From Desulfobacca sp. (GTDB lineage: Bacteria; Desulfobacterota; Desulfobaccia; Desulfobaccales; Desulfobaccaceae): 40,709 nucleotides of DNA. Below are positions 21,671 through 38,486 of this stretch, piece after piece; position 1 is the first letter of the stretch; every line of letters starts with the position of its first letter. The translations under genes and the position numbers were made by a program. The notes under the pieces are model-generated. The model did not search any database. It was not told the DNA's origin and worked only from the letters and a program-made list of their open reading frames with translations. Where the stretch lies: NCBI GenBank assembly GCA_028695935.1, contig JAQVHY010000012.1, positions 1-40,709 on the forward strand, in the 5' to 3' direction.

Positions 21671-21684
21671 GGACTCAAAAAGCC

Positions 21685-22899
21685 ATGCGAATTCGCTCTG
21701 TTGTGGTTATCTTATTGTCTGTCTTCTGGTGGATAGGTCACCCGGTTGTGGCTCTGGCCGCGGACTGGTCGGTGGTCCCGGCGGTAACCCTGAGGGGAGA
21801 ATATGACTCCAATCTAAATTTCTCCTTTGGGGAGAAGCGAAGCGATTATATCGTGCGCCTATCTCCAACTACTGATTATAACTACAAATCCGAGACCTTA
21901 CAACTGACGGGACGCCTGGCCTGGCATGCAATGCATTATTTTGCGAACAGCAACGTGGATAAAATTGATCAAAATTATTCGATCTTGAGCCGTTACCTGA
22001 CTACCCCGCGTCTCAGCCTGACTTTTAATGGCTCCTACATAGTGGATTCCACTTTACAGGAGGAGCTGACCGCCTCCGGGTTGATCATGACCCGCACGCC
22101 CCGGGAGTTTATCCGGGCGACACCGGGACTGGCCTACAATCTAACCGAACGCGCCGTGCTTACGTGGGATTATGGCTATGACCAGGTCAATTATCAAGAT
22201 CCAGATTTCACAGATTATTACCAACACCGAACCTCCCTGGGGTTGAATTACCTCATGAAAAACGAGAAAACTACCTTACGCGGCAATATCTTGGGGCGGA
22301 TGACTAAATATCCTGATATCGACAATGACTATCGCATCCTGGGGACCTATGCTGGTGTGGAACATATGTTTTCGGAAAATTGGAGCGTATCTCTGATGGG
22401 AGGGCTAAACTTCGCTTGGTATAATTTTCAAACCGCAGTCTTGGATTTCAGCGATTTCCCCTTTTTGGTCTTTGTGCGCCAACAAGAAGAAAAGACCTTC
22501 GAAGTAAGCCCTTATTTTTCCCTTTCCACTACCCGGCGTTGGACCAATACCAGCCTCGATTTGGGATATAGCCGGGATCAATCCGCTTCCGCTGGTGGCA
22601 CGGTTTTTGAAGCTAATCGGGCTTATGTAGCACTTAGTCACGCTTACAGTGAGAAGTTAAGGGGAGTTTTACGGGGTCATTTATATTTAAGTGAGTCAAC
22701 CGGAGCAAATAGCAATTATCAAAGTCTGGTGATGAGTATTGCTCCCGAGTTAACGTACAAACTAACCGAAAAATTATCTGTAGGCTCTGGTTACAATTTA
22801 AGTTGGCGGCAAGCCGAAGAAAAGATCCGACAGAGCGCCAACCGACATCTGGTATGGGTTTTCTTGAATTATTCTTATCCCGTGCATTATCAAAAGTGA
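21685..22899 (+). CDS. Outer-membrane beta-barrel protein, exosortase/PEP-CTERM locus type
   Basis: The 404-residue protein has a signal peptide (VVVILLSVFWWIGHPVVALA, cleaved near residue 25). A long series of alternating amphipathic strands follows, such as LSLTFNGSYIV, YQHRTSLGLNYLM and WSVSLMGGLNFAW, ending HLVWVFLNYSYP with aromatic residues typical of a barrel C-terminus. It fits the putative beta-barrel family found in exosortase-linked polysaccharide loci (TIGR03016/BBP2-like). It may work with the export lipoprotein in passing or anchoring polymer at the outer membrane; that role is inferred. It starts 15 bases after the lipoprotein gene. Confidence 0.87.
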   Translation: MRIRSVVVILLSVFWWIGHPVVALAADWSVVPAVTLRGEYDSNLNFSFGEKRSDYIVRLSPTTDYNYKSETLQLTGRLAWHAMHYFANSNVDKIDQNYSILSRYLTTPRLSLTFNGSYIVDSTLQEELTASGLIMTRTPREFIRATPGLAYNLTERAVLTWDYGYDQVNYQDPDFTDYYQHRTSLGLNYLMKNEKTTLRGNILGRMTKYPDIDNDYRILGTYAGVEHMFSENWSVSLMGGLNFAWYNFQTAVLDFSDFPFLVFVRQQEEKTFEVSPYFSLSTTRRWTNTSLDLGYSRDQSASAGGTVFEANRAYVALSHAYSEKLRGVLRGHLYLSESTGANSNYQSLVMSIAPELTYKLTEKLSVGSGYNLSWRQAEEKIRQSANRHLVWVFLNYSYPVHYQK

Positions 22900-22932
22900 C
22901 CAAAAAATTGGCTCCCAGATAGCCCGAGAGAC

Positions 22933-24672
22933 ATGGAACAAGAAAAAGATCTACGCTTTTACTGGCAAACCTTGCTGGCTCGCAAGCATTACTTTATCTG
23001 GCCGGCGGTGGCGGTGTTATTACTGTCCGTTATCGTGGCCTTAGCCCTGCCACCGACCTATGAATCGAAATCCACCATTCTGATCGAAGAACAGCAGATT
23101 CCCCAAAATTTCGTGCAGACCACCGTCACCGGACTCGCGGATGAGCGCATTCAGAGTCTGAGCCAACTAATTCTGTCTCGCACGCGCTTGCTCGAAGTCA
23201 TCAAGCAGTTCAATCTTTATCCCGATATGCGCGATAAGTACGCGGTAGAAGAAGTTATCGAGAAGATGCGGAACGACATCAAGGTTGATTTAATCACTGC
23301 TGAGGTAGGCACGGGGAGAAAAAATCAGGGCGTCACTATTGCCTTTACCGTGGCCTACCAAGGGAGAAATCCGGAAACGGTGCAACGGGTCGCGGGTACC
23401 CTGGCCTCACTCTATTTGGAGGAGAATCTGAAAATTCGCGAACAACAGGCCAAGACCACCACACAATTTTTAGAAGCCGAACTCAAAGAGATTAAGGAAC
23501 GCATCCGCACCATTGGAGATAGCATCTCAGAATTCAAGACCAAGCATGGTGAAATTTTGCCAGAGCTACAGCAGTTCAACCTATCCCAGGCGGAGAGTTT
23601 AGAACGGTCGATTGATCAACTTAATGCCCAAATCCGCGCGGTGGAGGATCGCAAGATATATCTGGATAGCCAGTTGTTGATGATCAATCCAGACTCCCCG
23701 TTGATCAGCGGTACCGGGGAAAGGATTTTGGACCCCCATTCCCGGCTCCGCACCCTCAAGGTCATCCTGGCCGAATTGCAGGCGCGCTACTCCGATGACC
23801 ATCCCGACATTTCCAGGGTCAAGCAGGAGATGGCCGAGTTAGAAAAAATGGTGGGCGCCAGTGAGGGTAGTCCCTCCATGAAGAGACAGAAATTAACCAA
23901 CCTCAAAGCCGAGCTGGCACAAAAACAGAGTCGCTATTCAGACCAACATCCCGAGATCATAAAACTTAAAAGGGAAATTGCGGAACTAGAGAGTATCCCG
24001 GAGGTAAATAGCCCGGCCCCGGCGGTGGCTCAGCCAGATAATCCAGCTTACATCAATTTGCTCACCAATATCCAGTCAGCTACCAATGACATTAACATGT
24101 TGCGAGGCCAGAAGGCCGAACTGGAGGCAAAACTCAAGAACTATCGCCAAAGGCTGGAGGATGCGCCCCAGGTCGAACAGGAGTACCTGGCCCTGGTCCG
24201 AGATTACCAGAACGCCCATGATAAACATCAAGAGATCATGAACAAAATTTTGGAGGCTCGCATCGCCGAAGGCATGGAGGCTTCGCAGAAGGCTGAGAAG
24301 TTTACCCTGATCGATCCGGCAAGCTATCCCGAGAAGCCGGTATCGCCTAACCGGCCACTGATCATGCTGGCCGGCCTGATCCTGAGTGGCGGCATGGGGT
24401 TTGGCCTGGTGGCCTTAACCGAACATTTGGACCACTCGGTTAAGAGTGCTGATGAAGTGGCTTGGCTGACCGGGGTGCCGGTTTTGGGTCGGATCACCCG
24501 TATGGTGACCGCGGAAGACCTGGCCCAAAAAATTCGGCGGCGGCGTCTGCTCTGGTATCTGGTGGGCTTGGCAATTCTGATGGGCTTCGTCAGCCTGCAT
24601 CTGTTCATTATGGATTTGGGGATACTCACCGCGCAAATTTGGCGGACCGTGGGTAAAATATACCTAATCTAA
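22933..24672 (+). CDS. Wzz-type chain length determinant, PEP-CTERM locus subfamily
   Basis: The 579-residue inner-membrane protein has a Wzz domain, with a first helix near 20-38 (IWPAVAVLLLSVIVALALPP) and a long periplasmic coiled coil (about 165-440, rich in Glu, Lys and Leu). The proline-rich PEKPVSPNRPLIMLAGL motif precedes the second helix near 470-495. A third hydrophobic stretch (about 540-562) lies near the C-terminus. Two related segments, ARYSDDHPDISRVKQEMAEL and SRYSDQHPEIIKLKREIAEL (about 285-355), look like an internal duplication. There is no kinase domain; that is the next gene. It sets polymer length together with the tyrosine autokinase. Confidence 0.93.
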   Translation: MEQEKDLRFYWQTLLARKHYFIWPAVAVLLLSVIVALALPPTYESKSTILIEEQQIPQNFVQTTVTGLADERIQSLSQLILSRTRLLEVIKQFNLYPDMRDKYAVEEVIEKMRNDIKVDLITAEVGTGRKNQGVTIAFTVAYQGRNPETVQRVAGTLASLYLEENLKIREQQAKTTTQFLEAELKEIKERIRTIGDSISEFKTKHGEILPELQQFNLSQAESLERSIDQLNAQIRAVEDRKIYLDSQLLMINPDSPLISGTGERILDPHSRLRTLKVILAELQARYSDDHPDISRVKQEMAELEKMVGASEGSPSMKRQKLTNLKAELAQKQSRYSDQHPEIIKLKREIAELESIPEVNSPAPAVAQPDNPAYINLLTNIQSATNDINMLRGQKAELEAKLKNYRQRLEDAPQVEQEYLALVRDYQNAHDKHQEIMNKILEARIAEGMEASQKAEKFTLIDPASYPEKPVSPNRPLIMLAGLILSGGMGFGLVALTEHLDHSVKSADEVAWLTGVPVLGRITRMVTAEDLAQKIRRRRLLWYLVGLAILMGFVSLHLFIMDLGILTAQIWRTVGKIYLI

Positions 24673-24690
24673 AATAGAGGAGCCGAATCC

Positions 24691-25599
24691 TTGGGCTTTA
24701 TCGACAAAGCACTGGAAAAAGCTAAGACCGTAAAACCGACAACCGAAGAGTCCCAGATTCATCCCCTGCCAAGGGTTACTCCGGTTGAGAGCCACTTCTT
24801 ATTTACTGGTATGGAAATGCCGGTAGAGGAGATTCAATACCACGTTACTCGCAGTGTGCCGGTGAAGGCGGATTGGTTACGACGCCAGAGAATTATTACT
24901 GAGGCCGAAGATGACTTCGTGAAAGAAGCCTTTAAGGTGTTGCGAACCCATATTGTGCAGCGCACCAGGCCGGCCAACCAAAACGTCTTAATGGTAACCG
25001 GCCCCCTTCCCGGCGAAGGCAAGACCCTAACGGCGATTAATTTAGCCATCAGCCTGGCCCAAGAAGTGGACAAGACCGTACTACTGGTGGATGCCGATTT
25101 GCGCCGTCCTATGGTCCATGAATATTTTGGGATTCCCCGTGGTCCGGGATTGGTGGATTATCTCAATGGCAACCTGCCTATCCACGAGCTCCTGGTGCAT
25201 CCGGAAGGTATTCCCAAGTTTGTGATCCTCCCGGGAGGGCGCCCAATTGGCGAAGCCGCGGAACTTATCGGTTCCCCGATGATGGCGGAGCTGGTGAAAG
25301 AATTAAAACATTTTTATCCAGATCGGTATGTGTTGTTCGATGTCCCGCCTTTGTTATCCTACGCTGATTCGTTAGCCTTCGCGCCGCTGGTGGACGGCAT
25401 TATTTTGGTGGTCGAAATGGGGAAAACTACCCGGGAAGATCTCCAGAGCTGTATGAAACTGCTGAAAGAATTTCCTCTTCTGGGCTCGGTGTTAAATAAA
25501 GTAGATAAGGAGGACACTTCTTGTTATTACTGTCAGCGGCCCAGTAGTAATGAAAAACCCGCAGCGAAAAAACACTTCCTGGATTGGCTAAGGCTCTGA
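24691..25599 (+). CDS. Tyrosine autokinase (BY-kinase), PEP-CTERM locus type
   Basis: The 302-residue cytoplasmic kinase has GPLPGEGKT (Walker A, 104-112), VLLVDADLRRP (Walker A', 130-140) and YVLFDVPPLL (Walker B), the three motifs of bacterial tyrosine kinases. It opens with GFIDKALEKA, as PEP-CTERM-locus autokinases do. The start is TTG at 24691 with GAGGAG upstream. The C-terminus lacks a clear tyrosine cluster: only CYYC is seen near residue 275, so its autophosphorylation sites are few or elsewhere. It controls the chain-length protein coded just before it. It overlaps the next gene by one base (TGATG). Confidence 0.92.
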   Translation: MGFIDKALEKAKTVKPTTEESQIHPLPRVTPVESHFLFTGMEMPVEEIQYHVTRSVPVKADWLRRQRIITEAEDDFVKEAFKVLRTHIVQRTRPANQNVLMVTGPLPGEGKTLTAINLAISLAQEVDKTVLLVDADLRRPMVHEYFGIPRGPGLVDYLNGNLPIHELLVHPEGIPKFVILPGGRPIGEAAELIGSPMMAELVKELKHFYPDRYVLFDVPPLLSYADSLAFAPLVDGIILVVEMGKTTREDLQSCMKLLKEFPLLGSVLNKVDKEDTSCYYCQRPSSNEKPAAKKHFLDWLRL

Positions 25600-26774
25600 T
25601 GTATCAAGAATTTTATGGTTTAACGGAACGGCCTTTCACCCTTGTTCCGGATCCTGATTTTCTCTACCTAAGCCCGCAGCATAAACTGGCCCGAGCCTAT
25701 TTGGAGTATGGCCTACATCAGCGCATGGGGGTGGTGGTGCTTACCGGGGAGGTGGGCACCGGCAAAACCACCTTAATAAAGGCGCTGCTCAAGACTCGGG
25801 AGAGAAACCAGCGCCTGGGGGTGCTGTATCAGACTTCCCTAAAGGCGGAAGATTTGCTGGAACTGCTCCTGGCCGAATTCCAGGTGCGGGGCCATTTCAA
25901 TAGCCGGGCGGCGCGGCTCACGGCCTTTAATCATTTCCTGAAGACAGCTCATCAGCGGGGTGAGCACGTCGTGTTAGTCGTGGATGAGGCCCAGAATCTA
26001 GGGGTGGAAGCCCTGGAGGAATTGCGGTTGCTGTCTAATCTGCAGGCCGGGAAAGAGTTCCTCTTGCAAGTGATTCTGGTCGGCCAACCGAGTTTACGTG
26101 AGCGGCTGCGACATCCAGCTCTACGCCAGTTGGCGCAGCGCGTGGCCGTCCATTATCATCTCCGGCCTTTGGACTTTAAGGAAACCAAGGAATACATCAA
26201 TTTTCGGTTGGCCAGGGCTGGCGGCAGTAACATCTTTTCGGAATCCGGCCTGGATAAACTTTATGAATATAGCCAAGGGGTGCCCCGGCGGTTAAATATC
26301 TGGTGTGACCTGGCCCTGGTGGCTGGCTTTGCCGAGGGCCGGCCAGAGATCGACGGAGAGTTTATTGACCTGGTATATGCGGCCCAAGGAGGCAGCCTAG
26401 AGTCTCAAGAAGTCCCGGAAGCACCCACTATCGAGGAGCCCCAACCTGATCTTCTGAAAGCCTGCCAAGCGGAAACTCAGGTGGCGAATAATGGCTTGGG
26501 CCAGGCAGTAGCTGAGCTGTCAGGCCGGTTGACCCGTTTAGAAGGCCTGGTGCTGGAAATGTCAGCCCATTTATTGCCCGTGTTGACCCAAGTATTGGAC
26601 CATAAGCTACAGCCTGAGGCTCCGGTAATGCCTGAGAAAGAGGCTGACGAGCATATCTTGCGGCAGGAGGGGGAGGAAACGGTAAGTGCCACCTTGCCCG
26701 GCTGTCGTCAAGGGCTGCGGGCTTCACTAAGGCACTGGTGGTCAAAAACCCGGAGGCCGGAGCGGCACTGTTAG
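25599..26774 (+). CDS. ExeA/GspA-like AAA ATPase, PEP-CTERM locus type
   Basis: From ATG 25599 the 391-residue protein begins MYQEFYGLTERPFTLVPDP, the standard opening of this secretion ATPase family. TGEVGTGKTT (Walker A, about 49-58) and VVLVVDEAQNLG (Walker B, Asp129-Glu130) follow, with sensor arginines in RQLAQRVAVHYHLRPL. After about residue 270 the sequence becomes acidic and low in complexity and then a likely coiled coil (LGQAVAELSGRLTRLEGLVL). There is no transmembrane helix or peptidoglycan-binding domain as in full ExeA. The family is a regular part of exosortase loci; its exact task is not known. Confidence 0.9.
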   Translation: MYQEFYGLTERPFTLVPDPDFLYLSPQHKLARAYLEYGLHQRMGVVVLTGEVGTGKTTLIKALLKTRERNQRLGVLYQTSLKAEDLLELLLAEFQVRGHFNSRAARLTAFNHFLKTAHQRGEHVVLVVDEAQNLGVEALEELRLLSNLQAGKEFLLQVILVGQPSLRERLRHPALRQLAQRVAVHYHLRPLDFKETKEYINFRLARAGGSNIFSESGLDKLYEYSQGVPRRLNIWCDLALVAGFAEGRPEIDGEFIDLVYAAQGGSLESQEVPEAPTIEEPQPDLLKACQAETQVANNGLGQAVAELSGRLTRLEGLVLEMSAHLLPVLTQVLDHKLQPEAPVMPEKEADEHILRQEGEETVSATLPGCRQGLRASLRHWWSKTRRPERHC

Positions 26775-26848: not shown

Positions 26849-27496
26849 GTGCGAGCCGAAACCCATAAATTTAAACTCGCCCTGGATCAGATTCTGGGGT
26901 GGCTGGCCTTGCTAGCTCTCAGTCCCCTGTTTTGGCTGCTGGCTGCCCTAATCCGCTTAGATACGCCCGGGCCCATATTTTTCCGCCAGGTGCGCATTGG
27001 CCAGGGGGGGCGTCCCTTTGTAGCCTATAAATTTCGTTCCATGGTTGATAAGGCTGTCACCATGGGTTTGGGATTGAATGTCGCAGTCGATGATGCTCGT
27101 ATCACCCGGGTAGGGAAATTCCTGCGTTACACTAGTCTGGACGAATTGCCCCAACTTTTTAATGTCCTGCAAGGTGACATGAGTTTAGTGGGGCCCCGGC
27201 CGACGTTGCCTTACCAGGTAGCAGCCTACAACGACTTTCAGCGCCGCCGTCTGCTAGTCAAACCGGGGATCACCGGTTGGGCCCAAATTAACGGCCGCAA
27301 CGCCATCCCCTGGGAGGAGCGCATCAGGCTAGATGTCTGGTACGTGGAAAATTGGTCATTAAAATTAGATGCGCTAATTTTGTTGAGAACCATCCGAACC
27401 TGGGCTAAACAGGAAGGCCTATACGGCCCTTCAGGCATAAATTATGACTTCAGGCCGCTGGATGCAGAACTAGCCGAGGGGGTGTCTAATATTTAA
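26849..27496 (+). CDS. Priming sugar-phosphate transferase (WcaJ/PglC-like, short form)
   Basis: The 215-residue protein is a bacterial sugar transferase of the short single-helix form. A membrane helix (about 15-35, GWLALLALSPLFWLLAALI) is followed by DTPGPIFFRQVRIGQGG, the KFRSM motif, YTSLDELPQLFNVLQGDMSLVGPRP (about 97-121) and ITGWAQINGRN. It would transfer a sugar-1-phosphate to undecaprenyl phosphate at the inner membrane, starting each repeat unit. GTG at 26849 is the start, with AGGTGG 9 bases upstream. The large N-terminal region of WcaJ/WbaP is absent, as in PglC. The sugar cannot be told; an amino sugar fits the cassette downstream. Confidence 0.93.
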   Translation: MRAETHKFKLALDQILGWLALLALSPLFWLLAALIRLDTPGPIFFRQVRIGQGGRPFVAYKFRSMVDKAVTMGLGLNVAVDDARITRVGKFLRYTSLDELPQLFNVLQGDMSLVGPRPTLPYQVAAYNDFQRRRLLVKPGITGWAQINGRNAIPWEERIRLDVWYVENWSLKLDALILLRTIRTWAKQEGLYGPSGINYDFRPLDAELAEGVSNI

Positions 27497-27678: not shown

Positions 27679-28860
27679 ATGGAATTTTCTACAAAAGCTC
27701 ATCACCCTGAAAAAGCCAGGACCGCACCCTCACCCTCTGCAATTCCCATCGTCCATCCCACCTTGCATGACTTCGAGGAGGTCGTCGCCGAATTTCGCCA
27801 GGCCTGGGACCAGGGCCAGGTCACCACCGGGGTGTTTACCCGCCGCTTTGAAGTCGCGGTGGAGGAAAAACTCCAGGTGCCTCATGCCATCATGGTCCAA
27901 TCCTGTACCGCCGGACTGATGCTGGCGTTACGGGCCCTGGACTTGACTGGCGAAGTGATCCTGCCCGCCTTTAGTTGGACCGCTACAGCCCATGCCGTGG
28001 TCTGGAACGGCCTTACCCCGGTGTTTGCCGATATCCTCCCCGGAACCTTAACCCTAAATCCTGAGGCGGTGGCCAAAGCTATCACGCCCCAAACCGCAGC
28101 TATCATGCCGGTAAATGTCTTCGGTTGTCCGCCAGAATACCAAGCGTTTGCCCGGCTGGCCAACGAGCATAAGTTGCCTTTAGTATATGATACGGCCCAA
28201 GGCCTGGGTTCCCAGGTTCAGACCCCCGACGGCAGTTGGGTCTATGCCGGGGGATTTGGCCAGGCCGAGGTTTTTTCGATGAGTCCTACCAAGGTGGTGA
28301 GCGCCATGGAAGGGGGTCTGATTACTACTACTGATGCGGAACTGGCCCAAAAACTCCGCCAAATGCGGGACTATGGTAAAACCGCGGACGCCTCCGACAT
28401 CGCCTGGCTGGGGTTATCGGCGCGGGTCCCCGAAATCAATGCCATTACCGCCCGCCATAATTTTGCCCATCTGGAGGACTTGATTTCCCGCCGCCAGGCC
28501 CTGGTGGCATTATACCAGGAATCGCTTCAGGGTCTGGCCGGAACTAGCTGGCAGCATGTTCCGACGGCCTATCGGTCCTCTTGGAATTATCTCACCATGT
28601 TTATCGACGAACAACAGGCCCGAGCCCCCCGGGATGCCGTTTATGAGCATCTCCAAAGCCGCAATATCCAGACTAAAAAATATTTTTATCCGGCCTTACA
28701 TCTCCAAAAAGTTTATCGCCAACTGGGTGAACCGTATCGGGGGACCCTGCCGGTCACTGAGGCCGCCGCCGTTGCCGGATTGGCCCTGCCCCTGTACAGC
28801 CACATGACCGAAGATACGGTCCAGCGGGTGGTTCATGCCGTGAGGGAAATTTTAACATGA
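27679..28860 (+). CDS. DegT/DnrJ/EryC1 family sugar aminotransferase
   Basis: The 393-residue PLP enzyme has the family core: SCTAGLMLALRAL near 75-87, LPAFSWTATAHAV near 95-107, VYDTAQG with Asp171 for the pyridine nitrogen, and SMSPTKVVSAMEGG with Lys205 as the Schiff-base lysine. The family aminates keto-sugar nucleotides (3- or 4-keto) to amino sugars for polysaccharides. No dehydratase or epimerase making the keto-sugar is in the window. AAAGGAT precedes the ATG. The stop overlaps the next start (ATGA), coupling it to the methyltransferase. Confidence 0.92.
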   Translation: MEFSTKAHHPEKARTAPSPSAIPIVHPTLHDFEEVVAEFRQAWDQGQVTTGVFTRRFEVAVEEKLQVPHAIMVQSCTAGLMLALRALDLTGEVILPAFSWTATAHAVVWNGLTPVFADILPGTLTLNPEAVAKAITPQTAAIMPVNVFGCPPEYQAFARLANEHKLPLVYDTAQGLGSQVQTPDGSWVYAGGFGQAEVFSMSPTKVVSAMEGGLITTTDAELAQKLRQMRDYGKTADASDIAWLGLSARVPEINAITARHNFAHLEDLISRRQALVALYQESLQGLAGTSWQHVPTAYRSSWNYLTMFIDEQQARAPRDAVYEHLQSRNIQTKKYFYPALHLQKVYRQLGEPYRGTLPVTEAAAVAGLALPLYSHMTEDTVQRVVHAVREILT

Positions 28861-29657
28861 AAAATTCTGATGTTACAATGAGCACTGGTAAACCGGATAT
28901 CAAAGCAAAGGATAAATTAGCTTACAAAAAAATCGTAAGTTGGATTATAGGAAAAACTTATACTTCACACAATAAGTCTCGCCCTATTTTGAAAGCAATA
29001 TCTTCATGTTTGAAAGGCCTTAAAAATAATGATATTGGCTTAAATATTGGCGCAGGTGGTACAAATTATGGTCACGCTATTATTAACTTAGATCTTCGCG
29101 CAGGCAAAAATATTGATGTGTGTGGAGATGCACAAACTTTACCATTTAAAAACGGGACCTTTGCCCTTATTATTTCACAAGAAACTTTAGAACACATTCG
29201 CTATCACTATAAAGCAATAACAGAAATGTGGCGAGTGCTAATAGAAGGTGGTACTTTATATTGCCAAATTCCATTTATAATAGGTTTTCACTCTAGACCA
29301 AACGATTTCTGGAGATTTACCAAAGAAGGAATACATGAACTTTTTTGTAACTGTGGTTTTAAATGTACAGAAATAGGGATTGCAGTAGGACCGGCGATGG
29401 GCTTTTATAGAATAACTGTCGAGTTTATTGCAATATTGTGTTCTCGAATGTTCTCTTTTTTATATCTTCCCGTTAAGGGCTTAACCGCTTTAATTCTATA
29501 CCCCATTACCTTTTTAGATTTCTTTCTAATTAAGGCGGAACAAGCAGAAAGGATTGCAGGAGGATTTTATATCATCGCTACCAAAACAGAGGGGAGCCAG
29601 AATCTCGCCGGAATAGCCCAAGCATTAGATTCAGAGAAGCCGCTGTTGGCAAAATGA
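28857..29657 (+). CDS. SAM-dependent methyltransferase, class I
   Basis: The 266-residue protein has a Rossmann methyltransferase core: IGLNIGAGGTNYG (motif I) near 60-72, NLDLRAGKNIDVCGDAQTLPF, then ISQETLEHIRYHYKAITEMW and GGTLYCQIPF. Its substrate is probably a sugar or other small group on the polymer, but that is inferred from position. Near the C-terminus (about 195-225) is a hydrophobic stretch, so it may touch the membrane. The gene is distinctly AT-rich (about 38% GC in one sampled stretch, against about 55% in the aminotransferase gene before it) and uses many AT-ending codons, which points to transfer. Starts and stops overlap neighbours on both sides (ATGA). Confidence 0.83.
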   Translation: MKNSDVTMSTGKPDIKAKDKLAYKKIVSWIIGKTYTSHNKSRPILKAISSCLKGLKNNDIGLNIGAGGTNYGHAIINLDLRAGKNIDVCGDAQTLPFKNGTFALIISQETLEHIRYHYKAITEMWRVLIEGGTLYCQIPFIIGFHSRPNDFWRFTKEGIHELFCNCGFKCTEIGIAVGPAMGFYRITVEFIAILCSRMFSFLYLPVKGLTALILYPITFLDFFLIKAEQAERIAGGFYIIATKTEGSQNLAGIAQALDSEKPLLAK

Positions 29658-30811
29658 GGGAATATTCCATGGCTGAGAAAGGAAAAACTCCATGTATAGT
29701 CGGTCTCCAAGGCAAACAGACGAAGGCCAGCCCCAGTTATGAAGTCCTTTCTTATGATAATCTGGCAGAACGGGAAAAATGGCGGTCCCTGTGCCAGCGC
29801 TTCAAAGACATCGACATCTTTTATTATCCCGAGTACGCTTACCTATTCCAATTGAAAGGCGATGGTCAGGCGAAGTGTTTTGTATATTACGAATCAGACG
29901 AGGATGTGGTCATCTATCCTTTTCTGCAACGGCCCATTAATGAATTATCAATTTTTCATGACTTGCCAGATTATTTGATTGATATTGTCACGCCATATGG
30001 CTATGGCGGCTATTTGCAAAGCAGTTCTCGCGTCGATATGGAAAAATTTTATGCGGTCTTCAAACAATATTGTCGCGAAAATAATATAGTGTCAGAATTT
30101 ATCCGCTTTCATCCTCTATTAGAAAATCATGCTTATTGTCCTTTTGGGGTTAATATTCAACAATGGAATAACACCGTGGTAATAGATCTTACTGCGAATG
30201 AAGATATTTTATGGCAAGCCATGACTCCCACGTGTCGTAATAAAATCCGGAAAGCCCGTAAGCATGGAATAAACGTAGCTCTGGACACAAATTGTGAACG
30301 GCTAACCGAGTTTTATAACCTATATACAACTACTATGGACCGGGTTAAAGCTCAGAGTTATTATTATTTTTCCAAATCTTGGTACAGCAATATTGTTAAG
30401 TTGCTCAGTGGCAAACTCGCTCTGTTTCATGCTTTCCAGCAAGCACAAATCCTAGCTTCGGGACTGTTTTTGTTTTCTAATAATTATATTCATTACTTTC
30501 TATCCGGTTCGCTCTACGAAATGCGATATTTGGCAGCTAATAATCTCCTGCTCTATAATGTGGCGCTTTGGGCCAAGGCCAAAGGCTTAAAGTATTTTTA
30601 CCTGGGGGGCGGATATCAACCAAATGATAGTTTGTTCAGGTTTAAGAACTCATTTGCACCCTTAATAAAACCTTTTTACATCGGCACAGTGATCCATGAT
30701 CAAGAATACTATGATTATCTTGCCCAGAGAGCACCTTGTTTAGAATACGCTGCTAATGATATTTATTTTTTTCCGAAGTATCGTAAGACGAGCAAAACTG
30801 TTTTAAGTTAG
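29654..30811 (+). CDS. GNAT/FemAB-like acyl or aminoacyl transferase
   Basis: The 385-residue protein matches the GNAT fold family that includes BioF2-like and FemAB-type enzymes. DIDIFYYPEYAYLFQL near 50-65, TPTCRNKIRKARKHGINV near 192-209 (the typical basic strand-turn of FemAB-like enzymes) and GLKYFYLGGGYQPNDSLFRFKNSF near 312-335 are the clearest marks. FemAB proteins add amino acids from aminoacyl-tRNA to cell-wall amines, and relatives use acyl-CoA. XrtA-type loci regularly carry a FemAB-like gene, so a role in decorating the polymer or its protein is plausible. The donor cannot be read from sequence. It overlaps the methyltransferase by 4 bases. Confidence 0.78.
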   Translation: MREYSMAEKGKTPCIVGLQGKQTKASPSYEVLSYDNLAEREKWRSLCQRFKDIDIFYYPEYAYLFQLKGDGQAKCFVYYESDEDVVIYPFLQRPINELSIFHDLPDYLIDIVTPYGYGGYLQSSSRVDMEKFYAVFKQYCRENNIVSEFIRFHPLLENHAYCPFGVNIQQWNNTVVIDLTANEDILWQAMTPTCRNKIRKARKHGINVALDTNCERLTEFYNLYTTTMDRVKAQSYYYFSKSWYSNIVKLLSGKLALFHAFQQAQILASGLFLFSNNYIHYFLSGSLYEMRYLAANNLLLYNVALWAKAKGLKYFYLGGGYQPNDSLFRFKNSFAPLIKPFYIGTVIHDQEYYDYLAQRAPCLEYAANDIYFFPKYRKTSKTVLS

Positions 30812-30817
30812 GCAAAT

Positions 30818-31810
30818 ATGAAAAAAAACGACAAGTTAAATATTCTTTTTACTAACGTAGGTCGCAGAGTATCTGTTATTCACGCCTTTAAAGAGGCTAT
30901 GACCAGATTAGGAGTCTCTGGGCAAATCTTAGGGGTTGATGCAAATCCATTGTCACCAGCCTATTATGTTACTGATCAATCCTTTCCGATATGTCATATA
31001 TCCAATGAGGAATATATCCCGGCTCTGTTGGATATCTGCCGTCGGGAAGAAGTGCAAATATTAATCTCTCTAATAGATACTGATTTACTGAAATTAGCGG
31101 AAAATCGTAAGCTGTTTTCTAACCATGGTATTTTTGTGGTAATTTCTTCTCCCGAGGTGATACGTTTAGCTAGAAATAAGGTTTTGACCGCTAATTTTTT
31201 TAAAGAAAACGAGATACCGACCCCCCGTATTTTATCATATGCAGAGGCCTGGCAAGAAAATTGCTTTCCTCTTTTTATTAAACCTCTGGATGGCAGTGCG
31301 AGCAATTTTGTTTTTCGAATTGAGAGTCATCGGTGTTTAGAATTCTTATACCAATATGTCCCCAATCCATTGGTCCAGGAATATATTCCCGGACAAGAAG
31401 TTACGCTAGATCTTTTTATCGACCTGAAAGGTAAAGTCAGGGCAGTGGTCCCCCGAAAACGCCTGGAGGTTCGGGCTGGAGAGGTAAGCAAATCGCAGAT
31501 CGTTCTTGATGCAAAAATCCTGGCTGATGGCCAAAGGGTAGCAGCAGCCTTAGCCAAGCGAGGTGGAATCGGGGTTATCAATGTCCAGGCCATTTATACC
31601 ACCGAAGGGGAGGGAAAGTTTATCGAAATTAATCCCCGTTTTGGTGGTGGCTCTCCCTTAAGTATAAAAGCCGGGTACCCCTTTCCCCAGTGGATAATCG
31701 AAATGGTGTTAGGTAAAGACCTGGCAAGTATACCAGGGAACTTGGGAGATGGTCTCACCATGCTGCGTTATGATGAAGCTATTTTTATACAACATGACGA
31801 GAAAGCCTAA
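30818..31810 (+). CDS. ATP-grasp ligase (carbamoyl-phosphate synthase-like)
   Basis: The 330-residue protein has a pre-ATP-grasp Rossmann domain (LNILFTNVGRRVSVIHAF, VDANPLSPAYYV, ISLIDTDLLKLAENR) followed by an ATP-grasp core from about 120: RNKVLTANFFKENEIPTP, FPLFIKPLDGSASN, QEYIPGQEVTLDLFID, ending FIEINPRFGGGSPLSIKAG with the metal-binding Glu and Asn. Such enzymes join a carboxylate to an amine with ATP. Placed next to the aminotransferase and FemAB-like genes, it could make an amide on an amino sugar or build an amino acid conjugate; this is inference. It is separated from its neighbours by only a few bases. Confidence 0.85.
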   Translation: MKKNDKLNILFTNVGRRVSVIHAFKEAMTRLGVSGQILGVDANPLSPAYYVTDQSFPICHISNEEYIPALLDICRREEVQILISLIDTDLLKLAENRKLFSNHGIFVVISSPEVIRLARNKVLTANFFKENEIPTPRILSYAEAWQENCFPLFIKPLDGSASNFVFRIESHRCLEFLYQYVPNPLVQEYIPGQEVTLDLFIDLKGKVRAVVPRKRLEVRAGEVSKSQIVLDAKILADGQRVAAALAKRGGIGVINVQAIYTTEGEGKFIEINPRFGGGSPLSIKAGYPFPQWIIEMVLGKDLASIPGNLGDGLTMLRYDEAIFIQHDEKA

Positions 31811-31812
31811 TA

Positions 31813-32502
31813 ATGCCGCTAAGGTTGATAGTTTTTGATTTAGATGACACTCTTTACCTGGAAAGAGACTTTGTTAAAAGTGGATTTAAAGCGGTTGGCG
31901 ATTATTTGCATAGTTTAGGGACTATTGATTCTGACGCTTTTTTTAAAACCGCTTGGGCTTTATTTGAAGACGGAGCGCGTGGCAGTATTTTCAATCAGGC
32001 GTTAGATATTTTAGGCAATCCTGTTTCTAATGAGCTCATAGCTGAACTGATCGCAGTCTACCGGCAACATCAGCCGGCTATAATAGCTTTTGAGGATGCT
32101 GGAAATTTGTTGCAGATGTTAAAAAGGCAAAAAATCATTCTCGCCTTAATTAGTGATGGTCCTGTTCAAACTCAAAAAAATAAACTTGGTGCCCTGGGCC
32201 TGACGGGCTTCTTTGAACATATCATCTTGACTGAATATTATGGTATTACATGGCGGAAGCCGAGTCCAACCTCGTTTTTAGCAGTCATGCACTCTGCCCA
32301 GGTAGAAGCCCACCAGTGTAGCTATGTGGCTGATAACCCTAGAAAAGACTTTTGGGCTCCCAATATTTTAGGTTGGCATAGTGTTCGGCTCCGTGATAAA
32401 CAAGGCCTTTATTATCAAGAGACCAGCCCCCCAGGCGGAGAACCGCAAGATACAGTTGGAGACTTTAAAACCCTATGTCAACTACTTTTAAAAAATATTT
32501 AA
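31813..32502 (+). CDS. HAD-superfamily phosphatase
   Basis: The 229-residue protein has the four HAD motifs: VFDLDDTL with nucleophile Asp9 and acid Asp11, ISDGP (motif II), WRKPSP with the conserved Lys (motif III), and SYVADNPRKDF (motif IV). The cap insert between motifs I and II is helical, as in type C1 caps. It probably dephosphorylates a small sugar or sugar-nucleotide precursor. It starts 2 bases after the ATP-grasp gene and overlaps the exosortase gene by 28 bases, so these are one translational unit. Confidence 0.88.
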   Translation: MPLRLIVFDLDDTLYLERDFVKSGFKAVGDYLHSLGTIDSDAFFKTAWALFEDGARGSIFNQALDILGNPVSNELIAELIAVYRQHQPAIIAFEDAGNLLQMLKRQKIILALISDGPVQTQKNKLGALGLTGFFEHIILTEYYGITWRKPSPTSFLAVMHSAQVEAHQCSYVADNPRKDFWAPNILGWHSVRLRDKQGLYYQETSPPGGEPQDTVGDFKTLCQLLLKNI

Positions 32503-34010
32503 CTTCAAAATTTAACTTTTCGTTAGTAACCCTTATTGCCGGGCTGGGCCTGGTAGCGGGATTGCTCTACTTGTATTGGCCCGTCCTCACTAGGTTGATT
32601 GTGAGTTTGGCGGAAAGCGAAGATTACTCCTATGGGTTGCTAATTCCCCTGATTAGCGGTTATATTGTCTATCGCAAGTGGCCGCAAATCCGCGCCCAGG
32701 CTGGGCAACCTTCCTGGATAGGCCTGGCGGTTATGGCCTTAGGGATCAGCCTTTATATCCTGGGAGAATTGGCTGCTGAACTATACACCACCCGCTTTTC
32801 CTTCGTGATCGTTTTGAGTGGCTTAGTTCTGCTAGTGGGCGGATGGAGGTTCTTGCGGTTGCTGGCCTTCCCCCTTATCCTCCTGGTTCTGATGCTGCCG
32901 CTCCCGGAGCTAATCACTTATAAGCTTACCCTGCCCCTGCAATTAATTTCTTCTCGCCTGGCCACCTGGTTTCTGCAAATTTCTGGAGTACCGGTTTTCC
33001 AGCAGGGGAATATCATTGACTTGGGTTATAAGCAACTCCAGGTGGTCCATGCCTGCAGCGGCCTGCGCTATATCTTACCTATTCTAGCCTTGGGTATAAT
33101 TTTTTGCTATTTTTACCAACGCCGCCTGTGGAAGGTGGTCGTCCTGTTAGCCAGTCTGGTACCCCTGGCCATTGTCGCCAACGCCCTGCGGGTGGCCGCG
33201 ATGGGCCTGTACCCGGCTCTGATCGAGGGCTTCTGGCACGGATTCTCGGGATGGCTCATTTTCATATTTTGTTTAGAGATTATCGCCCTGTTTAATTGGT
33301 TGTTAAACTATCTTTGGCCCTCCCCCCCCTCGGCTCTGGCCGTTCTAGGGACCTTTGTGAAAAATCCCCAAGCATATCCCCAGTTGAATTTAAACCTCTA
33401 TCTGCTGGGGGGTCTAGCGTTGGTACTCCTTGCCATTCCCTTGACCCAGCGGGCCGCGATCGCTCCTCCGGTGGCCCTTAAACAAAGCTTTGCTCATTTT
33501 CCCATGCAACTTGGCTCCTGGCAGGGACATCATACGTACGTTGACCCCGCGGAACTCAAGGCCACCAAGTCCCATGCTCACCTGAGCGCGGACTTTATCA
33601 ATCCTGATCATGGCCAGGTCAACCTGTGGATTGCCTATTATGAAACTCAGAAAAAGGCCGGCGGCTTTGTCCACTCCCCTAAAGGCTGCTTGACCGCGAG
33701 CGGCTGGCGACTCCTAAAAAGCGGGATCTATGAGATAACTCCAGAGCTCCCGGTAAATTATCTGCTAGTAGAGAAAATGGGAACCAAACTCATAGTTTTT
33801 TACTGGTATATGCAGCGGGGGCGTTGGCTCACCAGCGAATATCTCAATAAGTTTTATATGGCGTACGATGGCTTCTTACACCGGCGCACCGACGGAGCAC
33901 TTATTCGACTGAGCACCATCGCGCATCCGGATCTCAAGGCCGGGGAAGAAAGACTAGCATCCTTTGCCCAATTGCTGGCCCCAGAATTGCATAAATTTAT
34001 TCCAGATTAA
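32475..34010 (+). CDS. Exosortase fused to an EpsI domain
   Basis: The 511-residue protein is an exosortase: about eight membrane helices in residues 15-285, with the catalytic triad in place: Cys194 (VVHACSGLRY), Arg239 (VANALRVAAMG) and His255 (EGFWHGFSGW). Exosortases cleave PEP-CTERM-type tails from exported proteins and attach the proteins at the cell surface, coupled to exopolysaccharide. After another helix (about 307-325) a periplasmic EpsI domain follows (PMQLGSWQGHH, VNLWIAYYETQKKAGGFVHSP, CLTASGW, YWYMQRGRWLTSEY). The fusion resembles XrtA/XrtD-type enzymes; the exact subtype is not decided. No PEP-CTERM-type substrate is coded in the window. Its start overlaps the HAD gene by 28 bases. 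Confidence 0.92.
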   Translation: MSTTFKKYLTSKFNFSLVTLIAGLGLVAGLLYLYWPVLTRLIVSLAESEDYSYGLLIPLISGYIVYRKWPQIRAQAGQPSWIGLAVMALGISLYILGELAAELYTTRFSFVIVLSGLVLLVGGWRFLRLLAFPLILLVLMLPLPELITYKLTLPLQLISSRLATWFLQISGVPVFQQGNIIDLGYKQLQVVHACSGLRYILPILALGIIFCYFYQRRLWKVVVLLASLVPLAIVANALRVAAMGLYPALIEGFWHGFSGWLIFIFCLEIIALFNWLLNYLWPSPPSALAVLGTFVKNPQAYPQLNLNLYLLGGLALVLLAIPLTQRAAIAPPVALKQSFAHFPMQLGSWQGHHTYVDPAELKATKSHAHLSADFINPDHGQVNLWIAYYETQKKAGGFVHSPKGCLTASGWRLLKSGIYEITPELPVNYLLVEKMGTKLIVFYWYMQRGRWLTSEYLNKFYMAYDGFLHRRTDGALIRLSTIAHPDLKAGEERLASFAQLLAPELHKFIPD

Positions 34011-34496: not shown

Positions 34497-36047
34497 GTGC
34501 TTGATGATATACCTCAGTATCTCTCCAATAGGAGGTTAGTGCGCAACACCTGTTATAACTTCCTAGGCAAAGTTCTACCACTGGGAGTGGGACTTATCTC
34601 CATCCCCATCTTAATCCAAGGTCTGGGGATTGAACGTTATGGTGTTCTTATCCTGACCTGGATGGTAATCGGCTATTTCGGGATTTTTGATCTAGGGATT
34701 GGCCGTGCCACCACCAAGTTTGTTGCCGAATATCTGAGCCGCAATAAGTCGGCAGAATTGCCCTCCTTGATCTGGACCTCGCTATCTTTGCTGTTCGGGT
34801 TGGGTCTAGTGGGAGCAGTAACAGCTTATCTGGCGACGCCGATGTTGGTTGAGAAATTTTTCAATATCTCTGGTCCACTGATCGGAGAAACCCGTCTCGC
34901 CTTTTACCTATTGGCTTTCTCCATACCTTTTGTGGTTTGCACCGCCGGCATGTCTGGGGTGTTGGAGGCTCAACAACGTTTTGGCCTGATCAACGCCATC
35001 CGCACCCCGGCCAGTCTGGCTACTTATCTAGCACCCCTGCCGGTGTTGGCATTTACTAACAGCTTATATCCTATCGTAGCCCTGACGGTTGGCATTCGTT
35101 TGCTGGTCTGGTTAACATTTGGCTATTTTTGCCTGAGCTCTCTGCCCGGCAGGATTCGCCCGAGCCGGCCCCACCTTGACGATATCAAAAGACTTCTGGG
35201 TTTTGGGGGGTGGTTGACGGTTAGCAATATCATCTCCCCGGTCATGGTTTACATGGATCGCTTTCTGATCGGCGCCCTGCTGACCATGCAAGCCGTGGCT
35301 TATTATGTTACTCCTTATGAAATTGTAGCCAAACTCTGGATTATCCCTCAGAGCCTGGTGCCCGTCTTATTCTCGGCTTTCAGCGCCTATGCCATAGAAC
35401 AAAAGGATAAACTCGTTAGCTTGCAGCACCGAGGCGTTAAATATACCTTTCTCGTCCTTACCCCTATTACTGTTGGTGTCATCATTTTCGCCCGGCCCTT
35501 TCTGGGTTTATGGTTGGGTCCGGAATTTGCGCAAGTCAGTACGCCCATATTACAACTACTGGCAGTAGGAGTGCTGATCAATTCCATTGCCCATATCCCC
35601 TATAGTGCCATCCAGGCCCTGGGCCGTCCCGACCTTACGGCCAAGCTCCATCTCTTAGAGTTACCGGTCTATCTGGCGGTCCTCTGGTTCGCTATCCATA
35701 CCCTCGGGCTTATCGGGGTGGCGTTGGCCTGGGTCTTACGGGTCAGTCTGGATGCCGGCGTGCTGTTCTGCTGGGTACGGCGCTTGCAACCAGAAAAAAC
35801 CGGAAGCCCTCGGCGCCTTAAGATAGGCCTTTGGCTCCCTGCCGGTTTATTACTGGGAGCCACCTATTTCCTGGCTCTGACGCCCCATAATACTCTTAAA
35901 ATCGTATTTTTTCCAGTTATTATAGCCATCTTTACAGTCCTGGCCTGGCTATATATTTTGGATAATTTAGAAAAGACGCAATTTTTTATTATAAAAGCTA
36001 AGCTGGTGAGATTCCTGCTTTATAGGGGGGGAGATCTCTATGGCTAA
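34497..36047 (+). CDS. Wzx-type oligosaccharide flippase
   Basis: The 516-residue membrane protein has about 14 hydrophobic helices and the opening of the PST/MATE-like flippase family: NTCYNFLGKVLPLGVGLISI, GIERYGVLILTWMVIGYFGIFDLGIGRATTKFVAEYL. It moves lipid-linked repeat units from the inner to the outer face of the inner membrane. The start is GTG at 34497 with no clear ribosome site, after a long leader. It opens the second half of the locus, which is separated from the exosortase gene by 486 bases. Confidence 0.9.
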   Translation: MLDDIPQYLSNRRLVRNTCYNFLGKVLPLGVGLISIPILIQGLGIERYGVLILTWMVIGYFGIFDLGIGRATTKFVAEYLSRNKSAELPSLIWTSLSLLFGLGLVGAVTAYLATPMLVEKFFNISGPLIGETRLAFYLLAFSIPFVVCTAGMSGVLEAQQRFGLINAIRTPASLATYLAPLPVLAFTNSLYPIVALTVGIRLLVWLTFGYFCLSSLPGRIRPSRPHLDDIKRLLGFGGWLTVSNIISPVMVYMDRFLIGALLTMQAVAYYVTPYEIVAKLWIIPQSLVPVLFSAFSAYAIEQKDKLVSLQHRGVKYTFLVLTPITVGVIIFARPFLGLWLGPEFAQVSTPILQLLAVGVLINSIAHIPYSAIQALGRPDLTAKLHLLELPVYLAVLWFAIHTLGLIGVALAWVLRVSLDAGVLFCWVRRLQPEKTGSPRRLKIGLWLPAGLLLGATYFLALTPHNTLKIVFFPVIIAIFTVLAWLYILDNLEKTQFFIIKAKLVRFLLYRGGDLYG

Positions 36048-36074
36048 TTCAGGTGAAAATCTCATTAGAGACTC

Positions 36075-36158
36075 GGCTGCTCCCTTTAGGGAGCGGCTTC
36101 TGGCCCAAGATTATTAGTGGCAGGAGTGGCTCCCACTCAAATTTAGCCCCATCTGGGG
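36075..36158. repeat. Three consecutive hairpins between flippase and glycosyltransferase genes
   Basis: In the 142-base gap, GCTCCC-TTTA-GGGAGC (36079-36094, extended by G-T pairs to 36075-36098), GAGTGG-CTC-CCACTC (36124-36138) and CCCC-ATCT-GGGG (36147-36158) follow one another. There is no T run. A dispersed palindromic element or a processing/stability structure is possible. An antisense 69-codon frame across it is judged not to be a gene. Confidence 0.5.
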
Positions 36159-36189
36159 GAGGAACTGGTCTTAATCGGAGAAAAGTAAG

Positions 36190-37167
36190 ATGATCAAACC
36201 ACTCACCATTTCCATTGCGATGACTACTTACAATGGCGAGCGCTTCCTGCAGGAACAACTGGATAGCTTCACAAACCAGAGCCGACTGCCCGATGAATTA
36301 GTGGTGTGCGATGACGGCTCCCAAGATAGCACCATGAAAATACTGCAGGCATTTGCCGAGCGTGCTCCTTTCAAGGTTCGCCTTTACCAAAATCCTGAGA
36401 ATCTGGGGGTTTCCAAAAATTTTGAAAAGGCTATGTCACTTTGCCAGGGAGATATCATTGTACTATCTGATCAAGACGATGTTTGGCGATTTCCTAAGTT
36501 AGCCATAATTGAACAAGCCTTTATTAAATATCCAAATGTTGGTCTGGTATTACATGACGCTGTAATAACCTCAGAGAATTTGTATCCGCTCGAAGACTCT
36601 ATGTGGAAGCATTATGAGCTACTTTACTTACCAGAGTATTTAGCAGCAGGTCATTTTACATGGTTCTTCAAAAAATATTGGGGTATTAATGGAGCATTTA
36701 TGGCTTTATCAAAAAGTCTTTTGGAAATGTTATTACCAATTCCACCATTGTGGTGTCATGATAAATGGATTTCTTTCGCTGGTAGTACGCTATTAGGAGT
36801 AGTCCCGATACCTCTTCAATTAACATTATATCGGAACCATCCAAACCAAACATCCAAGTTTAAGCTCCTGGGCCTAATCGGTAATTTCAATACGGCTAGA
36901 ACTACTACAAGAATTTGTTATCAGGAAAGAGCACTAATGTGGAAAGAGGCTCTTTATAGGTTTTTAGCAGATGCTAAGTTTAGCAAACATAAAGATATAA
37001 TTCCCATGATAGAAACCAAAATTGAGCATTATTTAGAAAGATATAATATGCCTGACTCAGTATTTGGTAGAGTAGCTTATATTTTGGCTAATAAGAGAAT
37101 CAAGCGATACCATGAATACTCACGAGGTTGGTTAAGCATTGCAAAAGATATAGTAAACTATACTTAG
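36190..37167 (+). CDS. Glycosyltransferase family 2 (rhamnosyltransferase-like)
   Basis: The 325-residue protein has a GT-A fold start: ISIAMTTYNGERFLQEQLDS near 8-27, LVVCDDGSQDST near 37-48, VLSDQDDVW near 94-102 with the metal-binding Asp pair, then ALSKSLLEMLLPIP and WCHDKW. It resembles rhamnosyltransferase-like GT2 enzymes of O-antigen and capsule loci. From about codon 110 the gene becomes AT-rich with different codon use from its first third, so it may be a hybrid or an imported piece. It adds one sugar to the lipid-linked repeat unit; donor and acceptor are unknown. Confidence 0.88.
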   Translation: MIKPLTISIAMTTYNGERFLQEQLDSFTNQSRLPDELVVCDDGSQDSTMKILQAFAERAPFKVRLYQNPENLGVSKNFEKAMSLCQGDIIVLSDQDDVWRFPKLAIIEQAFIKYPNVGLVLHDAVITSENLYPLEDSMWKHYELLYLPEYLAAGHFTWFFKKYWGINGAFMALSKSLLEMLLPIPPLWCHDKWISFAGSTLLGVVPIPLQLTLYRNHPNQTSKFKLLGLIGNFNTARTTTRICYQERALMWKEALYRFLADAKFSKHKDIIPMIETKIEHYLERYNMPDSVFGRVAYILANKRIKRYHEYSRGWLSIAKDIVNYT

Positions 37168-37187
37168 CAATCGGTGGTTTTTTATGC

Positions 37188-37193
37188 TATGAT
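37188..37193 (+). promoter_or_regulatory. Candidate extended -10 promoter inside the locus
   Basis: TG-C-TATGAT (37185-37193) is an extended -10 box, with a weak TAGCAA 17 bases upstream. Start is expected near 37200, giving a leader of about 115 bases before the GT4 gene that contains the stem-loop at 37204-37268. Confidence 0.3.
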
Positions 37194-37203
37194 TTTTATA
37201 TGT

Positions 37204-37268
37204 CAGGGCTAATTCCTTATGCCAGTTTCCCAAAGGCAGCTTAATACATAACCTCTCAGCCCTGTTTT
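37204..37268 (+). terminator. Possible terminator or attenuator before the GT4 gene
   Basis: CAGGGCT (37204-37210) pairs with AGCCCTG (37258-37264), directly followed by TTTT (37265-37268). The long loop holds an inner TGCC/GGCA stem (37220-37238). It lies in the gap between two glycosyltransferase genes of the same operon, so it could reduce rather than end transcription. Confidence 0.4.
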
Positions 37269-37313
37269 AGGATTTTTTAACGAGGCTTTGCCTTTACTAA
37301 CTGAGGTAATACC

Positions 37314-38480
37314 ATGTCAATAAATCAACTAGCAAGGCCGATTAAGATCCTGCACGTACCAGGTGATTGTATGTGGGAAGGGAGTATCCATACATGGCTC
37401 GTCCAGGTACTCCGCCATATCGACAGATCGCGGTTTTGCCTCGACTTCGTGGTACATACCAACCGGGAAGGTTATTACCATGCCGAAGTACGTTCCCTGG
37501 GCGCCAAAATCATGCCCTGTTTAAACTATTACCAGCCCTGGTGGTATCAGCAAAACTTGCAAAGAATATTAAAAGAAAATGGCCCCTATGACATTATTCA
37601 CACTCATATAGCGGATTACAGCGGTTGGGTGATGCGGGTGGCTTACAAGGCCGGTGTACCTATACGCATTCCTCATAGTCATAATAACCCTTCGCATTTT
37701 CCAGGGAATTCCCAGTTGTATTGGCGCTTCCGACTGATGGTGATGAGAAGGTGGCTAAGGAAATATTCAACTCATTTTTTGGCTGTTTCCCAAGATGCCC
37801 TAGCGATGTTTGGCGCTGATCGGGTTAAACACCGCCGTTATTATATATTAAACGCCCCCCCAATATTTCAGGCATACCATGAAAAAGTTGATTCGGCAGC
37901 GCTCAGAAATTCGCTGCATATTCCCCCCGAAGCCCCGGTAATTGGGCATGTGGGACGGTTTTGTGATGCAAAAAACCACTTCTTGATCCTGGAGATCGCC
38001 AAAGAGATGGCTAAAAATTTACCCCAGGCGCGCTTCCTTCTAATAGGTGATGGTCCTTTGCGCTCCGCGGTAGAAGCAAAAGCCCACGCCTTGGGCCTCG
38101 GCGACCAGGTGATCTTCGCGGGCTTCCGAAAAGACGTACCTCGTTTATTACTGGGCGCCCTAGACCTCTTTCTCTTTCCATCTTTATATGAAGGACTTGG
38201 ATTAGCCTTGGTGGAGGCCCAAGCCGCGGGCCTCCCCTGTGTTTATTCCGATATCATTCCTAAGGAAGCTGACGTGGTGCCGCTCTTGCTGCATCGACTC
38301 TCACTAAATTCCTCAATCCCCGCTTGGGCTGACGCCATCCGGGCAGCCCTGAACAATCCTCACGCTATCTCACAGCAGGAAGCCCTGAGAATGGTCGAAA
38401 AGAAATTTAATATTGTCGAAAATGTCAAAGAACTGGAAAGAATATACACCATTGCGCTTAATGAGGCTAAGCTAAGGTAA
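37314..38480 (+). CDS. Glycosyltransferase family 4 (GT-B fold, EpsF-like)
   Basis: The 388-residue protein has a GT-B glycosyltransferase layout. The N-terminal half holds ILHVPGDCMWEGSIHTWLVQ (where homologues often have a GG[AV]E motif), DIIHTHIADYSGWVMR and IPHSHNNPS. The C-terminal GT1/GT4 domain holds IGHVGRFCDAKNHFLILEIA, FLLIGDGPL, VIFAGFRKDVP and FLFPSLYEGLGLALVEAQAAG with the E-x7-E catalytic pair. It resembles EpsF-like exopolysaccharide enzymes. GAGGT precedes the ATG. The donor sugar is unknown. It is followed 6 bases later by the next glycosyltransferase. Confidence 0.92.
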   Translation: MSINQLARPIKILHVPGDCMWEGSIHTWLVQVLRHIDRSRFCLDFVVHTNREGYYHAEVRSLGAKIMPCLNYYQPWWYQQNLQRILKENGPYDIIHTHIADYSGWVMRVAYKAGVPIRIPHSHNNPSHFPGNSQLYWRFRLMVMRRWLRKYSTHFLAVSQDALAMFGADRVKHRRYYILNAPPIFQAYHEKVDSAALRNSLHIPPEAPVIGHVGRFCDAKNHFLILEIAKEMAKNLPQARFLLIGDGPLRSAVEAKAHALGLGDQVIFAGFRKDVPRLLLGALDLFLFPSLYEGLGLALVEAQAAGLPCVYSDIIPKEADVVPLLLHRLSLNSSIPAWADAIRAALNNPHAISQQEALRMVEKKFNIVENVKELERIYTIALNEAKLR

Positions 38481-38486
38481 TAATTT

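Follow-up and report, generated by a model that had tools for sequence, protein, structure and literature searches.

The nearest published precedent for the genes described here comes from Neisseria, which exchanges two alleles: PglB, with its acetyltransferase, leads to diNAcBac, whereas PglB2, with an ATP-grasp domain, leads to the glyceramido sugar GATDH (PMC11130364, PMC6959607). We analyzed a stretch of 40,709 nucleotides of Desulfobacca sp. (GenBank assembly GCA_028695935.1, contig JAQVHY010000012.1), hereafter the window, in which five genes encoding a sugar aminotransferase, a methyltransferase, a FemAB-like transferase, an ATP-grasp ligase and a HAD phosphatase run into an exosortase gene. 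We propose, with a probability of about 0.65, that this block encodes a variant bacillosamine-type pathway that would give an N-acylated amino sugar to the polysaccharide of the XrtD exosortase locus. The original prediction that an aminated sugar is then acylated by the ATP-grasp enzyme is supported by two observations: the ATP-grasp and HAD genes (the kit) replace the acetyltransferase gene pglD of relatives, and the kit is accompanied by PglC-like, PglE-like and, in many cases, PglF-like genes.

The likeness to the Neisseria PglB2 pathway, as far as published descriptions of the latter go, consists of a dehydratase, an aminotransferase, a phosphoglycosyl transferase and an ATP-grasp protein replacing the acetyltransferase. 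Unlike in Neisseria, the ATP-grasp protein here is a separate gene product with a HAD partner, and the locus is devoted to exopolysaccharide and exosortase rather than to pilin O-glycosylation. The PglC/D/E/F system of Campylobacter has in common with our genes a PglC-like transferase, a DegT aminotransferase and a PglF-like dehydratase, but its PglD acetyltransferase is absent from the cassette, where ATP-grasp and HAD are found instead. B. subtilis EpsL/M/N/C, which we take to be a bacillosamine-type module, differs in the same way, EpsM being absent here and ATP-grasp plus HAD present. A further likeness is with the type IX Wbp/Vim system of Porphyromonas and Tannerella, where a sugar aminotransferase and a FemAB/GNAT-type aminoacyl transferase stand beside a system that sorts proteins by joining their C terminus to an amine; the FemAB protein of the window is predicted, from its FemX-like model, to have the same FemAB/VimA-type fold. 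On the contrary, the Wbp oxidation genes and the VimE deacetylase were not identified among the window genes scanned (the rest of the genome was not searched for VimE), the sorter is an exosortase, and attachment is here only a proposal. Finally, the XrtD-EpsI fusion, the Wzz, kinase, export and ATPase genes and the VPLPA-type substrates are as in PEP-CTERM/exosortase exopolysaccharide loci (Haft 2006; XrtD/VPLPA-CTERM), with the difference that the ATP-grasp-HAD kit adjoins the exosortase here, an arrangement that G011 alone shares among the loci we examined.

The five-gene block and the exosortase correspond to six open reading frames at 27679-34010, all on the + strand and within a complete exopolysaccharide locus:

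27679..28860, + strand: DegT/DnrJ sugar aminotransferase in PglE-like position (PF01041 314 bits; DesI model 254 bits, below cut-off)
28857..29657, + strand: S-adenosylmethionine-dependent methyltransferase, accessory (Methyltransf_11 PF08241 43 bits; GC content 0.36)
29654..30811, + strand: FemAB/FemX-like transferase, probably aminoacyl-tRNA dependent (FemAB PF02388 53 bits; Acetyltransf_6 51 bits; AlphaFold fold)
30818..31810, + strand: PylC-like ATP-grasp carboxylate-amine ligase (PylC-like_N PF21360 85 bits; ATP-grasp_3 PF02655 65 bits; nearest PDB entry 2pn1)
31813..32502, + strand: HAD-IA phosphatase (HAD_2 PF13419 57 bits)
32475..34010, + strand: XrtD exosortase fused to an EpsI domain (TIGR04152 432 bits; Exosortase_EpsH PF09721 231 bits; DUF3485/EpsI PF11984 186 bits)
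26849..27496, + strand: PglC/EpsL-like short polyprenyl-phosphate sugar-1-phosphate transferase (Bac_transf PF02397 220 bits; short form of 215 amino acids)
20984..26774, + strand: upstream context of polysaccharide export protein, outer-membrane protein, Wzz-like protein, tyrosine autokinase and PEP-CTERM-associated ATPase (NCBIfam/Pfam)
34497..40590, + strand: downstream context of Wzx-like flippase, three glycosyltransferases and Wzy/O-antigen-ligase-like polymerase (Pfam/NCBIfam)

Consecutive genes are spaced by -4 bases (aminotransferase/methyltransferase), -4 (methyltransferase/FemAB), +6 (FemAB/ATP-grasp), +2 (ATP-grasp/HAD) and -28 (HAD/XrtD), and the PglC-like gene, which is additional to the five first noted, ends 182 bases before the aminotransferase. 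Coordinates, strand and spacing therefore confirm five coupled genes with a 28-base run into the exosortase, and Pfam matches confirm the six families assigned at the outset. The 28-base overlap is further supported because XrtD of a congener (G002; G, C and L denote genomes, contigs and loci) starts at the same distance from a conserved GLLYLYWPVL motif. GC content differs along the block, being 0.57 for the aminotransferase, 0.36 for the methyltransferase, 0.40 for FemAB, 0.42 for both ATP-grasp and HAD and 0.51 for XrtD, indicating a patchwork.

We then compared the locus with those of the same order, whose genomes are mostly draft assemblies (the loci of G002 and G005 are incomplete at contig ends). 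In G011 a single run contains the PglC-like gene, aminotransferase, ATP-grasp, HAD, XrtD and a PglF-like dehydratase, without methyltransferase and FemAB. G003 and G004 have the order PglC-like, aminotransferase, FemAB, PglD, XrtD and PglF-like, with FemAB and PglD where the window has ATP-grasp and HAD, and in G008 the same slot holds FemAB and PglD fused as one protein. The PglD-slot protein of L111 passes the TIGR03570 model (221 versus 160.8), and the orthologous aminotransferase is directly preceded by a PglC-like gene in G011, G003, G004 and G008. The tree places the aminotransferases of the window, G001, G003, G004, G008 and G011 in one clade with good support and a long branch, the same whether the slot holds PglD or the kit, and separate from the aminotransferases of kit loci in other phyla. 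The ATP-grasp proteins of the window and G011 are sisters. The xrtD gene of G002 is 84-88% identical in DNA to that of the window over most of its length, with homology ending near codon 28 and at the stop codon; upstream of it lies a different ATP-grasp gene, and downstream a UDP-GlcNAc 2-epimerase, a dehydrogenase-acetyltransferase fusion, an aminotransferase and a GNAT protein, thus Wbp-type diaminosugar genes plus a GNAT gene. The simplest story suggested by these arrangements is a resident frame of transferase, aminotransferase and XrtD in which the acylation genes were exchanged.

We also looked for the kit outside the order. ATP-grasp relatives (the best 80 of 416 confirmed) came from a contig scan with an alignment as query, while a single ATP-grasp sequence used as query recovered no relative. 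Counts refer to 67 loci, duplicates removed, that carry a close homologue of the ATP-grasp protein, close kin being counted separately, and neighbours were labeled with models built from the window's own proteins. Results showed that a HAD gene lies within 4 kb of ATP-grasp in 53 of the 67 loci and within 100 bases in 43; the 4-kb range takes in a PglC-like gene at 41 loci and an aminotransferase at 42, and PglD and an exosortase each turn up at 2. Hosts include Paenibacillus, Ammoniphilus, Metabacillus, Oceanobacillus, cyanobacteria, Rhodobacteraceae, Thiotrichaceae and Planctomycetota, and many of these loci, over many phyla, also have a PglF-like gene. In Paenibacillus, the Bacillus group and other relatives the gene order is PglC-like, ATP-grasp, HAD, aminotransferase, which is presumably that of B. 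subtilis epsL-epsM-epsN with epsM replaced. FemAB accompanies the kit in cyanobacteria and two Bacillota, and the HAD catalytic residues (DxD, Lys, DNPxKD) are invariant in the 19 homologues aligned. In the congener G001, which has no exosortase, one run (L025:8508-12139) carries the same aminotransferase clade, a PglC-like gene, a PHP-domain protein and a distant ATP-grasp (26% identity), showing that the HAD position can hold another type of phosphoesterase.

The ATP-grasp, HAD and FemAB proteins might instead have a different substrate, such as a peptidoglycan precursor or a small metabolite, and be mere neighbors of the aminotransferase. The substrate of FemX is indeed a UDP-MurNAc peptide, and the ATP-grasp family is broad. 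Considering, however, that unrelated phyla persistently keep the ATP-grasp-HAD pair linked with PglC-like genes and aminotransferase genes, and that FemAB is fused to a PglD domain in G008, we judge this explanation very unlikely.

The sequences themselves establish which genes are present, their order and families, the slot replacement among relatives and the broad conservation of the kit. For the bacillosamine-type pathway, the substrates, the acyl group and the order of steps that we infer are as follows. The PglF-like 4,6-dehydratase would produce UDP-4-keto-6-deoxy-HexNAc, which the aminotransferase would convert to the 4-amino sugar. By analogy with Neisseria PglB2, the ATP-grasp ligase would couple this amine to a carboxylic acid, which may be glycerate or an amino acid, where PglD would add an acetyl group. 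The HAD protein may free the acid from a phosphorylated precursor or dephosphorylate the product; we guess that its part is to provide or trim a phosphorylated acid, phosphoglycerate being one example. FemAB may use aminoacyl-tRNA to add an amino acid. Finally, the PglC-like enzyme would load the sugar phosphate onto undecaprenyl phosphate, and the modified sugar would then be the first residue of the chain.

The source genome has a single full-length homologue of the PglF-like dehydratase, on contig C71, 62% identical to the dehydratase that follows XrtD in G011, and the aminotransferase has its key Lys, in SPTK. Several points weigh against the proposed pathway. The dehydratase is encoded outside the window. 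The aminotransferase scores below every equivalog cut-off, the nearest named being DesI at 254 bits, so that amination may be at C-4 or at C-3. The methyltransferase has no assigned role in the route. Moreover, one 541-residue protein (L041:8378-10003, genome G230) joins a PylC-like ATP-grasp to a PglD-type acyltransferase, so that the two are at times combined, replacement of PglD being the usual case and no strict law.

The role of FemAB was approached by sequence and predicted structure. By sequence it resembles FemX. Its AlphaFold model (pLDDT 89) matches FemX in the PDB at E 7e-15 and aminoacyl-tRNA-dependent peptide synthases at about 5e-14; FemA and MprF rank ahead of CoA-dependent GNATs, which match only at about 1e-6 or worse. 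Aminoacyl transfer is therefore likelier than acetylation, and the protein is probably an aminoacyl-tRNA-dependent transferase, so that the predicted fold supports reading it as an aminoacyl transferase. It is not the known pep-cterm_femAB (TIGR03019 51.6 versus a cut-off of 260.35; separate clade in the tree), nor does FemAB track the exosortase within the order (4 of 9 exosortase genomes versus 3 of 20 others, p = 0.16). In exosortase loci outside the order FemAB is linked to the aminotransferase (6 of 8 versus 0 of 61); as a different FemAB clade is concerned, we did not use this as direct evidence. FemAB is also the lowest-GC gene in the loci of G003 and G004. A second, tandem copy in G003 (L116:12847-13923) has one TGA inside the match, and a FemAB match in G017 (C23:99783-100874) has two in-frame stops, which suggests turnover of this gene.

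The idea that the five genes form a single exosortase-tied unit had to be abandoned: the methyltransferase has no homologue in the other loci that we examined, FemAB is not always present, and the kit stands beside an exosortase in only 2 of the 67 loci. It had been reasoned that the idea would fail if the genes occurred separately in unrelated loci without a shared pattern; they do occur separately, yet a clear shared pattern is present.

As for the exosortase, it passes the XrtD model TIGR04152 (432.2 versus a cut-off of 400), carries a fused DUF3485/EpsI domain and has the exosortase motifs with conserved Cys, Arg and His (ACSGLRY at 193, NALRV at 236, FWHGF at 253). VPLPA-type substrates are present in the genome, with one match above the TIGR03370 cut-off and several VPLPG proteins scoring below it. 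The XrtD proteins of the order form one clade, in which that of the window is sister to XrtD of G008, from another family, indicating that the locus has moved between lineages. The source genome has a second XrtD-EpsI exosortase on contig C162 (L023:2308-6692), overlapping by 1 base a different DegT aminotransferase; before it comes a sugar transferase whose N-terminal membrane region is PglF-like, and three VPLPG/VPIPT-CTERM proteins lie beside it in divergent orientation. In G002, XrtD (contig C81, L169:5458-6926) reads as two overlapping open reading frames, the exosortase part and the EpsI part, reflecting either a frameshift or a split gene.

We asked whether the sugar could be what the sorted proteins are attached to. 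In type IX secretion, cargo is amide-bonded to a seryl/glycyl amino sugar made with the FemAB-related VimA, and the authors of that study already suggested that an acceptor of this kind is made in exosortase loci by FemAB/VimA-like proteins (Veith 2020, PMC7468200). Applied here, the nucleophile receiving the XrtD-cleaved C terminus of VPLPA-type proteins would be the amine, or else an amino acid that ATP-grasp or FemAB attached to it. In favor of this, the aminotransferase clade is found in 7 of 9 exosortase genomes versus 1 of 20 others of the order (p = 1.7e-4, with no correction for relatedness or physical linkage), and the only PglF-like dehydratase of the source genome lies 210 bases after a VPLPG-CTERM gene, while its homologue in G002 lies among four such genes. 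G002 also keeps xrtD within its different, Wbp-type surroundings, and in Nostoc an aminotransferase is directly upstream of the exosortase gene crtB (PMC12188702). On the contrary, G001 has the aminotransferase clade and FemAB with neither exosortase nor VPLPA proteins, of the 69 exosortase loci sampled outside the order only 6 have an aminotransferase within 9 kb, the kit almost always occurs without an exosortase, and a scan limited to window genes identified no VimE-like deacetylase. Such a linking sugar thus seems rather unlikely, and the sugar as attachment point is a tentative idea, already published as speculation and unproven here. Somewhat more doubtful is its extension, in which the amino sugar would be the XrtD acceptor and lineages would swap the chemistry (ATP-grasp-HAD, FemAB-PglD or Wbp-type diaminosugar) around a conserved xrtD.

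The exosortase loci L161:1673-8244 and L116:2232-5817 have Wbp-like diaminosugar genes near a FemAB gene, both with a 2-epimerase and an aminotransferase, L161 also with a dehydrogenase-acetyltransferase fusion and L116 with a 6-dehydrogenase, an arrangement that fits the published Wbp/Vim linking-sugar idea. In two congeners (L171:7898-11032, L172:1396-4461), the gene directly 5' of the PglF-like dehydratase encodes a VPLPG-CTERM protein resembling a C39-type cysteine peptidase, a tentative label from reading of the sequence.

Alternatively, the genes may do no more than determine which sugars the exopolysaccharide contains, adjacency to xrtD resulting from cassette exchange in a surface-glycan locus. 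The presence of the aminotransferase and FemAB in G001 and the wide distribution of the kit, both without exosortase, speak for this plain decoration, as do the GC patchwork and the sharp edges of xrtD homology with G002, which indicate exchange; the aminotransferase clade nonetheless follows the exosortase across the order, and the dehydratase lies with genes for sorted proteins. We consider plain decoration a serious possibility, at slightly less than even odds. The likelihoods given to these readings overlap, as the bacillosamine-type pathway concerns biosynthesis and is compatible with either role of its product.

To our knowledge, the acceptor of exosortases has not been identified. Our literature searches returned nothing linking exosortase with ATP-grasp, bacillosamine with ATP-grasp, or exosortase with VPLPA-CTERM, and the only precedent for ATP-grasp N-acylation of 4-amino sugars in the literature searched is Neisseria PglB2. 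If an amine-bearing lipid-linked sugar is indeed the acceptor, this locus and its relatives would name the genes and the adduct to look for. Regardless of attachment, the ATP-grasp-HAD module would represent a widely distributed means of varying the N-acyl group of 4-amino sugars.

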